A stretch of 64,000 nucleotides of DNA from Phycisphaerales bacterium (GTDB lineage Bacteria > Planctomycetota > Phycisphaerae > Tepidisphaerales > Tepidisphaeraceae). Positions within the stretch are counted from its first letter, which is position 1. Each line of letters begins with the position of its first letter. The stretch spans positions 1-64,000 of the forward strand of contig JADYZN010000007.1 in assembly GCA_020853095.1 (NCBI GenBank), written 5' to 3'. This document shows, in pieces, positions 3,653 through 7,657 of the stretch. Both the position numbers and the translations under genes were made by a program. The notes beneath the pieces are model-generated. The model was not told the origin of the DNA. It saw nothing but the letters and a program-made list of their open reading frames with translations, and did no database searches.

Positions 3653-4465
3653 CTATTCCTCATCCACCCGCTGATATTTGAACACCGCCCGATACAAACC
3701 CGATACCTCCTCCGACGCGATCGTCCGCGGACGATATTTTTCGTTGCGGGGCTGCAATCTCAACACCGGCTTTCCCCCCTCATCGGATTCAAAAAACACC
3801 CGCTTGAACGTCGTCTGGCCATCGCCGAATCGCACAAAACAATCATCCCCGTTGCGAACGGTCGTCCCGGGCGAAAAAACCACGATGTCGCCGGCCCGGT
3901 ATTTGGGGCACATCGAATCCCCATGCACCCGCGCCGCGAACGCCTGGTCATCGTGCAGGTCCGGGCAGGAGACGTAATCATCCGCCACGCCGCGCGGATA
4001 CGACAGGTCCGTAAAATCCCGCGGATACCCCGCCGACACCTTGTTGATGATCGGAACCGCGTTGGTGGAAACGTGTTCGATGTTGCCGGCCGATCGGTCC
4101 ACAAATTCCTGCAACACCCCCGATAAATACGCATCGTCCAGATTCACCGATCCAGCGCCCGACATGGCCGGCACATCGGGTTTGATCTCCCCATCCGGCT
4201 TCTGCTGCGACAATAATTTCTGCAACACCACCCGCACATCCCGCGGCGTACGCTGAAGATGCGCCTGCGTCAGCAAATGCCCCGGCGTAAAAGCCAGCGA
4301 CTGCTCCAGCTTCCGCAATTTTTCGTCGCTGGGTGGATTGGGAACCCGACCGGTCTCGATCAACGACAAATACGGCTTGGAAATCCCCGTCCTCCCCGCC
4401 AGTTCATCCAGCGTCAAACCCAGCTTTCGCCTCTGCCGACGAAGTTGTATGCCCAGTCCTTCCAT
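3653..4465 (-). CDS. XRE-family repressor with S24 (LexA/CI-type) self-cleavage domain
   Basis: A 270-residue phage-type repressor. Residues about 7-55 are an XRE helix-turn-helix (GLTLDELAGRTGISKPYLSLIE). Residues about 140-270 form an S24 peptidase fold. The serine is Ser184 in HGDSMCPKYRAGD and the lysine is Lys221 in TTFKRVFF; the 37-residue spacing equals that of Ser119/Lys156 in E. coli LexA. A candidate autocleavage bond, Ala145-Gly146 in KVSAGYP, lies 39 residues before the serine. By analogy, RecA filaments would trigger self-cleavage and derepression. I chose ATG 4465 because GGAG lies six bases before it; an in-frame ATG at 4471 and a TTG at 4492 are alternatives. It is divergent from the operon starting at 4651. 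Confidence 0.9.
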   Translation of the reverse strand: MEGLGIQLRRQRRKLGLTLDELAGRTGISKPYLSLIETGRVPNPPSDEKLRKLEQSLAFTPGHLLTQAHLQRTPRDVRVVLQKLLSQQKPDGEIKPDVPAMSGAGSVNLDDAYLSGVLQEFVDRSAGNIEHVSTNAVPIINKVSAGYPRDFTDLSYPRGVADDYVSCPDLHDDQAFAARVHGDSMCPKYRAGDIVVFSPGTTVRNGDDCFVRFGDGQTTFKRVFFESDEGGKPVLRLQPRNEKYRPRTIASEEVSGLYRAVFKYQRVDEE

Positions 4466-4557
4466 CGCCATCTCCGATTTTCGCCTTCGCAAGAATATTT
4501 AACGCCCTCAATACTCTATTGAATAACGAATATTGAAAAATAATGCAAGAAAAATAC

Positions 4558-4600
4558 TTGACATTTACCTAACATGAGATATGCTATGGAAGATGTTTAG
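4558..4600 (+). promoter_or_regulatory. Promoter and candidate operator of the terminase cassette
   Basis: A consensus -35 box TTGACA (4558-4563) is 16 bp from a -10-like TATGCT (4580-4585). An imperfect inverted repeat, CTAACAT at 4569-4575 and ATGTTTAG at 4593-4600, brackets the -10 box, which is where a repressor would act. The divergent gap 4466-4650 is strikingly AT-rich and also holds a direct repeat TATTGAA at 4517 and 4531, which may serve the leftward S24 gene. Assignment of the S24 protein as the binder is inference from the divergent arrangement. Confidence 0.6.
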
Positions 4601-4650: not shown

Positions 4651-5061
4651 ATGTCCATCCTCGATGAAATCTCCGAAAATCCTCGCGTCGGCTCCTTTTC
4701 ATCCCCGCGGCTGCTTGATCGCATCCGATTCCTGGATGATGCCGACCAGATGCTCCTGACGCTCGTCCAGCAGGGGTCGGTCAGCCTTCGACAAATTTCC
4801 CGACTGACCGGCGTTCATGGCGGCACGCTCTCCCGGCGGATTCATCGACTGGCCAGCCGCCTGCACGATCCGGTCGTGGCATCCCTCATCGACCATGGCA
4901 AAGCCCTGCGGACGGAACATCGCCAGCTTGGCATCGAGCATTTTCTGCACGGCAAAAGCATCACCCAGCTCGCGGACCTGCATCAGATGACCCGACGGGA
5001 AGTCTCCCGCATTTTGACCTTTCTGCGCGGCTGGTCTCGCGGAATTGCCATGCGAGGCTGA
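4651..5061 (+). CDS. Small double helix-turn-helix protein
   Basis: A 136-residue basic protein that I do not recognise by name. Two HTH-like segments can be seen: one near residues 45-75 (SLRQISRLTGVHGGTLSRRI), like sigma-70 region 4, and one near 108-130 (SITQLADLHQMTRREVSRIL). It is the first gene of the cassette, following the promoter at 4558, with GGGAAG upstream of ATG. In phage maps a small DNA-recognition protein often precedes the terminase large subunit, so it might stand in for the missing small terminase, or it may simply be an activator. There is no sigma region 2, so a full sigma factor is unlikely. Confidence 0.7.
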   Translation: MSILDEISENPRVGSFSSPRLLDRIRFLDDADQMLLTLVQQGSVSLRQISRLTGVHGGTLSRRIHRLASRLHDPVVASLIDHGKALRTEHRQLGIEHFLHGKSITQLADLHQMTRREVSRILTFLRGWSRGIAMRG

Positions 5062-5087
5062 TTTCCCATCGCACACAAGGGGGCAAC

Positions 5088-5696
5088 GTGTTGTCAAAAC
5101 CAATCCCCGCAATCGACCACGCGCAACGCATCCGGCAATGGTTTGGCATTGGTCAGAACAGGCCGATTCAATACCCGGCCGATGCGTTGACGCCACCTGA
5201 ACCCGGCCGGCTCCATCTGATCAACGGGCCTTCCGGATCGGGAAAAACCCGCCTGATGCGCCGACTGCGCCATCGCTGGCGCGGCGACTTTTGCCTTTTC
5301 GATCTGGATGCGATGAAACTCCCGCGATGCCCCACCATCGAATGCTTCGCACGTCTGCAACTGGAAGTGGCGTTGCATCTTCTGTCCCGCGTCGGTTTGG
5401 CCGAGGCGCACACGTGGCTTTTGCCCGCGCATCGGCTCAGCGAGGGACAGCGATGGCGATTGAAACTGGCCATCGCCCTGATGAATGCGCGCGACGCCGA
5501 TCGGCCGGCCATTTTGTTCGCCGATGAATTTGCCGGTTGTCTTGATCCACTGACCGCTCGCATCGTCGCCCATACCCTGCATCGTCAAATTCGAGCTTTT
5601 CAACTGCGCGCCCTGATCGCCACCTCCCGCGACGACTTGCTGAGCGTCTTGTGTCCCGACCAGGTGATTCAATGTGATTTTGGCGTTTGTCGATGA
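5088..5696 (+). CDS. ABC-type P-loop ATPase, stand-alone (COG2401-like half)
   Basis: A 202-residue soluble ATPase. Walker A is GPSGSGKT (47-54), the ABC signature is LSEGQ (117-121), Walker B is ILFADE (142-147), and the D-loop LD follows at 152-153. The switch position where transporters have His reads IATSRDD, so the H-loop His seems to be replaced. There are no membrane segments and no permease partner. Its ABC core followed by a separate GNAT gene resembles the fused ABC-ATPase plus acetyltransferase proteins of COG2401. The start is GTG 5088, four bases after AAGGGGG. It is second in the cassette. A role in DNA handling, like other soluble ABC ATPases, is inference. Confidence 0.8.
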   Translation: MLSKPIPAIDHAQRIRQWFGIGQNRPIQYPADALTPPEPGRLHLINGPSGSGKTRLMRRLRHRWRGDFCLFDLDAMKLPRCPTIECFARLQLEVALHLLSRVGLAEAHTWLLPAHRLSEGQRWRLKLAIALMNARDADRPAILFADEFAGCLDPLTARIVAHTLHRQIRAFQLRALIATSRDDLLSVLCPDQVIQCDFGVCR

Positions 5697-5718
5697 ATCA
5701 ATCGAAAGTGGGGAAACC

Positions 5719-6381
5719 ATGAATCCGAGTTCATTCCTGCCCGGCCGGTTCATCATCGAACCGGGCGATCGACAGGATTATTTCGCCTTGCATCGGTTTC
5801 ATTACTGCGCCAAACCGCCAGCGACCTTCGCCGCCATCCGGGTGGTGCGATATGAAGAACCAAACCAGCCACGTCGGCTTGCCGGCGTCGCGGTGCTGTC
5901 GTGGCCGGCCCCGTGCAATCTTGGACGCCAGCGCTATTTCCGCACGCGGGATTCTCCGTTTGGCCAGCGCCTGCGTTGGATCAACCGGCATCTGCGCACG
6001 ATCAGCCGGATCATCGTCCACCCGCAATTTCGCGGCATCGGGCTGGCGTCGGATCTCGTGCGGCACATCCTCGCCTCCAGTCCCACGCGCTTCATCGAAA
6101 CCACGTCCAAAATGGCTGCCATTCATCCCTTTTTTGAGCGCGCCGGCATGAAAAGGGTGGCCTTGCGCGACGAGGATGCCGCCTATTTCATTTACGACCA
6201 TTTCAATGGGGGAAACCGTGACCTGTTCGCCAATCGAATCGATCGACCTGTGGCAACCCTGTTCAACTCCGCGGATGTTGCGTCGCTGGATCGAGCAACA
6301 TCTGAACCTGCATCTGCCGGATCAACCTGTCTGTCCGTATCACCAGTCGCCGATGCAATACCTGATTCAATCCTATTTTGA
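5719..6381 (+). CDS. GNAT-fold acyltransferase, Mom/COG2401-like
   Basis: A 220-residue protein. The GNAT acyl-CoA loop is clear: ISRIIVHPQFRGIGLASDLV (residues 95-114; R105-G-I-G108). Downstream, SKMAAIHPFFERAGM (130-144) and an N-terminal HRFHY (25-29) resemble COG2401-type acetyltransferase domains and the Mom group, in which phage Mu Mom modifies adenine in DNA. The start at ATG 5719 follows GTGGGG by five bases, 22 bp after the ATPase gene. The real domain seems to end near residue 165; the last roughly 55 residues are low-complexity and overlap the terminase start in another frame. Substrate is unknown; DNA or protein modification is inferred from context. Confidence 0.75.
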   Translation: MNPSSFLPGRFIIEPGDRQDYFALHRFHYCAKPPATFAAIRVVRYEEPNQPRRLAGVAVLSWPAPCNLGRQRYFRTRDSPFGQRLRWINRHLRTISRIIVHPQFRGIGLASDLVRHILASSPTRFIETTSKMAAIHPFFERAGMKRVALRDEDAAYFIYDHFNGGNRDLFANRIDRPVATLFNSADVASLDRATSEPASAGSTCLSVSPVADAIPDSILF

Positions 6382-7657
6382 GCCGGCCGGTGATTTGGTG
6401 GTGTGGGCGCCGCGCGGCGGGGGAAAGACCCGCCTTGGGGCGGCCGCCACGCTGCTGGATTTGTTTCACAAGCCCGGCTGCTCGGTGCGAATCCTGGGCG
6501 GATCGTTGGAACAAAGTTACAAGATGTGGGATCACCTGTTGCCGGATGTTCAGCGTCTGGCGGCCGATCAACTGACCACCCGCGGCAATGCCAGACGTTT
6601 TCGACTTGAAAACGGCTCCGAAGCGTCGGTCCTGACCCAGAGCGAGCGCGCGGTGCGCGGCGTGCGCGTGCAGAAGGTCCGTTGCGACGAGGTGGAACTG
6701 TTTCGCCCCGAAGTCTGGGAGGCTTCCCAGCTCGTCACGCGAAGCCGGACGCCATCCGATGGCGAAGGCGGCGTCGAAATTCGCGGCGTGATCGAGGCCT
6801 TTTCCACCTGGCATCGCGTCGGCGGCATGATGCAGCGGATCATCGAATCGGCCCGCAAACAACACACGATGATCATCAAATGGTGCCTGCTGGAAGTTTT
6901 GCAACGTTGCCCGCCCGAACGATCGTGCGATTCATGCCCGCTGTGGGATGAATGCCGCGGGATCGCCAAGACGCGATGCGATGGGTTCATCGGCATCGAC
7001 GACGCCATCCGCATGAAACAGCGCGTCTCCCGCGAAGTCTGGGAGGCCGAAATGCTCTGCAAACGTCCCAGCCGGCGCAACGCCGTCTTCGCGGCATTCA
7101 ACGCCGACACCCACGTCCGCACGCAGTTTCCGGACATCACCACCTCCGCTGAAACGTGGCTGGCGATGGATTTTGGATTCGTCAATCCGTTCGTCTGCCT
7201 GTGGATCGTCCGGCACGACGACGTGACGTACGTCATTGATGAATACGTTCAGGAGCAACGAACGATGCAGGAGCATCTGGAGCAGGTCAAGGCCCATCCC
7301 TGGGGGCGGGTGCGTCGAATCGCGTGCGACCCGGCGGGATCGGGGCGAAACGAGCAGACGGCCGTGTCGAACGTCCAGATGCTTCGGGCGGCCGGTTACA
7401 CGGTGCGATTTCGCAAAAGCCGGATCGTCGAAGGAATCGAGATGATCCGCGCCGCCTTGCGTCCGGCCGCCGGCAAGCCGACGTTGTTCGTTCATCCGCG
7501 CTGCGCGAGGCTGATCGAGGCGTTGCGCAATTATCGTTACGCCGACCCATCCAGCGAATTGCCGCTGAAGGATGGAACCCATGACCACCCGATCGACGCC
7601 TTGCGGTATTATTTCGTCAACAGCCGGCGTTCCGAATCGCCGCCAAGATCGTATTGA
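6218..7657 (+). CDS. Phage-type terminase large subunit (TerL)
   Basis: A 479-residue DNA-packaging motor/nuclease homologue. The ATPase half has Walker A APRGGGKT (64-71) and Walker B VRCDEVE with D157-E158. The RNase H-like nuclease half keeps three acidic residues: D318 (LAMDFGF), D371 (IACDPAG) and D460 (HDHPIDAL). Between them is a cysteine cluster (C231, C237, C240, C246, C254) that looks like a metal-binding insertion. I place the start at GTG 6218, five bases after GGGGG, echoing the GGGG-AAACC-start arrangement of the preceding gene; ATG 6206 is an alternative. All catalytic residues look intact, yet no portal, capsid or small terminase gene is nearby. Confidence 0.88.
   Translation: MTCSPIESIDLWQPCSTPRMLRRWIEQHLNLHLPDQPVCPYHQSPMQYLIQSYFEPAGDLVVWAPRGGGKTRLGAAATLLDLFHKPGCSVRILGGSLEQSYKMWDHLLPDVQRLAADQLTTRGNARRFRLENGSEASVLTQSERAVRGVRVQKVRCDEVELFRPEVWEASQLVTRSRTPSDGEGGVEIRGVIEAFSTWHRVGGMMQRIIESARKQHTMIIKWCLLEVLQRCPPERSCDSCPLWDECRGIAKTRCDGFIGIDDAIRMKQRVSREVWEAEMLCKRPSRRNAVFAAFNADTHVRTQFPDITTSAETWLAMDFGFVNPFVCLWIVRHDDVTYVIDEYVQEQRTMQEHLEQVKAHPWGRVRRIACDPAGSGRNEQTAVSNVQMLRAAGYTVRFRKSRIVEGIEMIRAALRPAAGKPTLFVHPRCARLIEALRNYRYADPSSELPLKDGTHDHPIDALRYYFVNSRRSESPPRSY

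Follow-up and report, generated by a model that had tools for sequence, protein, structure and literature searches.

Proteins of the COG2401 type (MK0520) consist of an ABC-type ATPase fused to a predicted acetyltransferase. Phage homologues carry the annotation 'MK0520 protein, ABC-type ATPase fused to a predicted ...', and in the Salmonella phage SSU5, the Pseudomonas phage nickie and several Rhizobium phages (L023-L027) the ABC ATPase (PHROG 293/11143) and the GNAT acyltransferase (PHROG 886) are separate genes 5' of TerL. The gene order in these phages is ParB-like, (ParB or methylase), ABC, small genes, GNAT, a TerS-like HTH gene, TerL, portal and capsid. Earlier work predicted that GNATs coupled to an ABC ATPase acylate a base in DNA (PMC7824862).

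The window analysed here, a stretch of 64,000 nucleotides from a Phycisphaerales bacterium, carries a pair of the same kind. The earlier note on this DNA had described two open reading frames, an ABC ATPase and a GNAT, 22 bp apart and with similar ribosome-binding sites. Both details were confirmed: the ATPase gene runs from a GTG at 5088 to a stop at 5696 and the GNAT gene from an ATG at 5719 to a stop at 6381, with the sites GGGGGCAAC-GTG and GGGGAAACC-ATG, respectively. A third similar site, GGGGGAAACC-GTG, precedes a terminase gene. This TerL gene and an HTH gene upstream, both absent from the earlier note, belong to the same gene run as ABC and GNAT. Open reading frames and profile matches in the window yielded a five-gene packaging locus, in which a divergent repressor gene is followed by HTH, ABC, GNAT and TerL in one direction, while the remainder of the window was annotated as ordinary host genes. 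The features of the locus are:

3653..4492, minus strand: CI/LexA-type repressor, XRE HTH plus S24 self-cleaving peptidase (Pfam Peptidase_S24 2e-18, HTH_31 2e-11, phrog_4 1e-32)
4558..4585, plus strand: sigma-70-like promoter TTGACA-16-TATGCT, 5' of the operon (consensus match only)
4651..5061, plus strand: HTH DNA-binding protein, operon gene 1, 136 aa, two sigma-r4/AsnC-like HTH units (profile matches; dN/dS 0.12)
5088..5696, plus strand: soluble ABC ATPase, 202 aa, COG2401-like, without permease (PHROG 11143 1e-20, PHROG 293 8e-14)
5719..6381, plus strand: GNAT acyltransferase, conserved domain at about 5737-6195 (PHROG 886 7e-14)
6206..7657, plus strand: TerL, packaging ATPase plus RNase H-like nuclease, start at ATG 6206 or GTG 6218 (Pfam Terminase_6C 5e-12, phrog_2 4e-18)

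We favor the view, from sequence comparison, that the ABC-GNAT pair belongs to the packaging locus of a phage that was domesticated and is inherited vertically; the most likely identity of this element is a gene transfer agent (GTA) of the Phycisphaerae.

TerL overlaps the GNAT frame in a different reading frame. The GNAT domain ends near 6200, and the tail from 6206 to 6381 is the out-of-frame overlap with TerL. The dN/dS of this tail was 1.4 at a dS of only 0.15, compared with 0.26 for the GNAT core and 0.27 for the overlapped part of TerL. Because of this difference between tail and core, the C-terminal tail of the GNAT is taken as a by-product that shows no selection of its own.

The relation to COG2401 was examined by profile comparison with the SSU5 proteins. 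The ABC ATPases matched with an hhalign probability of 100% (E 3e-42) and the GNATs with 98.8% (E 5e-17), which is conclusive for homology at the level of sequence profiles. The COG2401-type relation proposed in the earlier note was thus borne out by the SSU5 matches and the phage annotation, both domains being homologous to those of the MK0520 type, with the GNAT corresponding to the acyltransferase part. On the other hand, the split into two genes is not the free-standing and unusual trait it was taken for. Because SSU5, nickie and the Rhizobium phages carry two genes as well, this state is already known in phages, and fused ABC-GNAT genes occur in some related genomes (L051, L052, L054, L256) and one viral contig (L287). 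What sets the window apart from the fused MK0520 type is two genes tied to TerL and a repressor. It also differs from SSU5, nickie and the Rhizobium phages, which are complete phage genomes with a TerL only remotely like that of the window: the window genome lacks ParB and TerS between its GNAT and TerL genes, and the SSU5 capsid belongs to a different family, phrog_212.

The ATPase contains Walker A (GPSGSGKT), signature (LSEGQ) and Walker B (ILFADE), as had been described. Its AlphaFold model (pLDDT 93) showed the usual ABC-ATPase fold. The loss of the H-loop His reported before is real in the window's protein (ATSRDD) but does not extend to the family, since the position was occupied by H in 17, R in 10, Q in 4 and N in 2 of the 33 aligned homologues. 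Because the residue varies in this way, we regard its loss as a trait of the lineage.

The distribution of the system was studied in genomes that are nearly all metagenome-assembled. TerL was present in 150 of 298 genomes sampled evenly across the class (120 of the 230 good ones), nearly always as a single copy with a frame free of stops, and about half of the class is without the system. Named matches of the genome scan fell nearly all in Planctomycetota, mostly Phycisphaerae and Sedimentisphaerales, and included the finished ZRK34 chromosome. The Phycisphaerales chromosome CP070806.1 has two TerL copies (L227 and L247) about 2 Mb apart. The GNAT was found in 40 of 61 relatives, one copy each. 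Among genomes at least 90% complete, GNAT and TerL occurred together in 26, GNAT alone in 5, TerL alone in 1 and neither in 11 (p 8e-6, relatedness being ignored). The order HTH-ABC-GNAT-TerL was kept in the 38 loci read, often with the divergent repressor. GNAT was near TerL in 29 and ABC in 28 of the 55 loci with enough upstream sequence, and the HTH gene lies directly 5' of ABC in many loci of the class. The recurrence of this gene order in dozens of genomes means that the adjacency of ABC and GNAT is not due to chance. Other families have ParB-like and TerS-like genes between GNAT and TerL. One family has an NlpC/P60 cell-wall hydrolase gene between GNAT and ParB (L043 of genome G046, 4816-5622).

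Five genomes keep ABC-GNAT without TerL or capsid, so the role of the pair need not be packaging. In a locus of G027 (L054, 3410-8912) a fused ABC-GNAT gene, with neither TerL nor capsid, adjoins EcoRI-type and D12 adenine methyltransferase genes, and nucleases of the SacI/GmrSD-HNH type lie alongside. This single context suggests a second life of ABC-GNAT in a restriction-modification setting.

The usual targets of GNATs are proteins or small molecules. The window's GNAT has the acyl-CoA loop RGIGLA and the segment HPFFERAGM, which the earlier note had pointed out and which are both hallmarks of the family. In 39 sequences the residues H28, Y29, R70, N89, R97, P102, R105, G108, E127, F139 and G143 were invariant. 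The AlphaFold model (pLDDT 92) has a GNAT fold, and its matches in the PDB were led by the nucleobase acetyltransferase TmcA, with Mu Mom (8bv8) at rank 15; these scores were not specific, and the protein acetyltransferases Naa50 and RimI were matched as well. An ordinary RimI-group enzyme, for which the earlier note had allowed, was not found, as the RimI score, 14.6 bits, lay below the cut-off of 86.4. The suggested link to Mom did not hold at the sequence level: the hhalign probability was 0.6%, and Mu Mom falls in PHROG 1384 instead of 886. We therefore rejected membership in the Mom family after profile comparison; what the two share is the GNAT fold. A Mom scan of viral contigs retrieved only close relatives of Mu.

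We tentatively regard ABC-GNAT as a DNA acyl-modification module of the candidate GTA. A serious rival, which may quite possibly be correct, is that the GNAT acetylates a protein, such as TerL, the portal, RNA polymerase or a DNA-binding protein, and not DNA. This would fit the usual substrates of GNATs and the fold matches to Naa50 and RimI, and Rac-type GNATs of phages do modify host RNA polymerase (PMC7824862). Yet the coupling of the GNAT to an ABC ATPase, ParB-like genes and TerS argues for DNA, and so do the one fused ABC-GNAT that has adenine methyltransferases and restriction endonucleases as neighbours, in a locus without capsid genes, and, with the reservation on specificity given above, the fold matches to TmcA and Mom.

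Portal and capsid genes follow TerL in three genomes (G017, G033 and G042), and searches with these genes located their counterparts in the window's own genome. There, the portal and an SU10-type major capsid (MCP) are encoded on another contig, C22, at about 11.6-14.9 kb, so that TerL, portal and SU10 capsid are present in the same genome. This head locus (L106, G000:C22:11601-16460) comprises genes for the portal, the SU10-type capsid, a connector-like protein, a holin-like protein and a lipoprotein, and it is bounded by a Ser/Thr kinase gene and argH. The capsid (SU10_MCP 2e-84) was found as a single copy in 33 and the portal (SPP1_portal 5e-13) in 32 of the 61 relatives. In the good genomes portal and capsid co-occurred perfectly (26 with both, 17 with neither). 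TerL and MCP were both present in 25 genomes at least 90% complete, TerL alone in 2, MCP alone in 1 and neither in 15 (p 1e-8, relatedness again ignored). The argH gene adjoins the head locus in four of the six genomes of the own family that were read (the window's genome, G001, G018 and G021, not G006 and G009). In the sister species G001 the portal frame is interrupted in its variable middle (L109, contig C24, 3273-4857); either a frameshift or an error of the assembly may be the cause.

A few families have the packaging and capsid loci side by side. In genomes that are complete or nearly so, the two loci lie apart, by 0.98 Mb in G041 (2.16 Mb versus 3.14 Mb on one contig), 128 kb in G054 and 62 kb in G037. 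Because of these distances the element cannot package itself as one piece. Several transposase-like genes surround the capsid locus of G041 (L116), the genome in which TerL lies furthest away.

Three protein searches recognised no tail genes in the genomes of the own family; a marginal match in G022 (E 3e-4) was not counted. Tail-like genes were restricted to families f2, f9, f10, f11 and f15. Either the tail genes of the own family are too divergent or located elsewhere, or the particle is tailless. That recognised genes do not explain delivery in the own family is the weak point of the GTA reading. Together with the five genomes that retain ABC-GNAT without TerL or capsid, the patchy tail genes would fit domestication for a use other than transfer, e.g. 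a compartment that contains DNA but has no tail, or interference with phages entering the cell. We consider such a use unlikely. Portal and TerL imply DNA packaging, and in several families the head genes are accompanied by a holin-like gene, which suggests release. Other families retain a longer head-tail cluster. Furthermore, PADLOC defence families gave no match for GNAT or TerL, and the ATPase matched generic ATPase domains only.

If the genes belong to a GTA they should be inherited with the chromosome and kept under selection. The own family was monophyletic in the trees of MCP (support 0.97, n=14) and GNAT (0.82), while the support for TerL was only 0.31. The capsid, TerL and GNAT trees recovered nearly every family with at least two members. 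Family f16 was not monophyletic for MCP or GNAT, and the ABC tree failed to recover the own family. In Mantel tests against RpoB distances the rho was 0.70 for TerL (p 0.001), 0.45 for GNAT, 0.35 for ABC and a weak 0.20 for MCP (p 0.064). The weak correlation of MCP, the low support for TerL, the ABC tree and family f16 leave room for some horizontal transfer. Between two species of the genus dN/dS was 0.08 for the capsid, 0.095 for the repressor, 0.11 for TerL, 0.12 for HTH, 0.235 for ABC and 0.26 for GNAT; the reference genes argH and XerD of the same species gave 0.20 and 0.07. By these sequence measures, the packaging and capsid genes are kept as working genes under purifying selection. 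Neither integrase nor replication genes were found at the packaging (C7) and head (C22) loci, both of which are flanked by host genes, and the XerD in the window scores as a housekeeping recombinase.

A quite improbable explanation of the same data is that related phages integrated repeatedly and that only packaging and capsid genes linger in defective prophages. All genes have phage homologues, some viral contigs combine a related TerL with ABC-GNAT or capsid, and the weak correlation of MCP with RpoB and the failure to recover f16 point in this direction. However, recurrent integration hardly accounts for single copies with intact frames, dN/dS values of 0.08-0.26, the monophyly of the family, the conserved address at argH, loci up to 0.98 Mb apart and the lack of an integrase or replication genes, with XerD being a housekeeping enzyme by its score. 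Thus a GTA fits better than recurrent prophages, because class-wide vertical inheritance, purifying selection and scattered loci coincide with portal, capsid and TerL, a self-cleaving repressor and no replication or integration genes. In the viral contigs L284 and L287, TerL relatives adjoin ABC or fused ABC-GNAT and TerS-like genes. These two may be free phage relatives of the ancestor, and the viral relatives of TerL, which share about 30-38% identity, are possible ancestors.

That the ATPase is an ordinary transporter subunit beside an unrelated acetyltransferase is effectively refuted by the conserved linkage: its predicted model is nearest to the transporter ATPases HrtA, MacB, FtsE and LolD in a structure search, but there is no permease in the operon or nearby, just as the earlier note had stated, transporter equivalogs scored 47.5 against a cut-off of 266.1, and ABC and GNAT remain neighbours across the class as well as in phages, and are fused elsewhere.

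The repressor offers a clue to the control of the candidate GTA. LexA and CI share the same Ala-Gly, Ser and Lys residues for self-cleavage. Thirteen homologues that lie beside the cassette all keep the catalytic Lys (FKR) and the Ala-Gly site of cleavage, and 12 of them the catalytic Ser (GDSM). Because of this conservation we infer a damage-induced relief of the HTH-ABC-GNAT-TerL operon. The promoter-like TTGACA-16-TATGCT agrees with the consensus in 10 of 12 positions, and its TTGACA is also kept in G001; two promoter-like sites were found where 0.9 were expected. No operator shared by packaging and head loci was seen, i.e. no common 14-mer at up to 2 mismatches, and the single short palindrome found, at 4508, is not kept in G001.

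We propose that the S24 self-cleaving repressor would keep the operon off until DNA damage or stress lifts repression and HTH, ABC, GNAT and TerL are produced together. Portal and SU10-type capsid would be supplied by the second chromosomal locus, and TerL would pump host DNA into the resulting capsids. The ABC ATPase is predicted to act on DNA or a packaging protein, as a dimer without permease, and to present the substrate to the GNAT by ATP-dependent positioning, whereupon the GNAT would acylate this substrate ahead of packaging, DNA bases being the most likely target. Base acylation might protect packaged DNA from the restriction systems of recipients. The scheme in full, in which a new class-wide GTA lineage arose independently from phage, is controlled by a repressor that cleaves itself and marks packaged DNA by ABC-assisted base acylation, is doubtful as a whole. 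If packaged DNA did bear an acylated base, marking or protection of transferred DNA would become a concrete experiment, and the orphan ABC-GNAT module would gain a testable role.

Known GTAs are confined to a few lineages, and new ones were mostly found by their likeness to known ones. A published planctomycete GTA was not found in the open-access literature, which is not all of the literature. The TerL of a Zavarzinella prophage has been placed near the TerLs of RcGTA (PMC7947584). The ZRK32 phage is extrachromosomal according to its paper, the text of which names no terminase or capsid, and for these reasons it was not linked to the present genes. The candidate system probably gives rise to gene transfer particles, and these would be of a type so far undescribed in Planctomycetota. 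If so, a GTA would be kept in about half of a bacterial class, and domestication of phages as GTAs would be more widespread. Compared with RcGTA and the RcGTA-like elements of Alphaproteobacteria, the system of the Phycisphaerae belongs to another phylum and has an unrelated capsid type (SU10_MCP), an SPP1-like portal, the ABC-GNAT module, a CI/LexA-type repressor and no recognised tail in the own family. We think it probable that these genes represent a GTA of independent origin. Like RcGTA, the candidate comprises vertically inherited, single-copy head and packaging genes under purifying selection, which are distributed over more than one locus and are not accompanied by replication genes.
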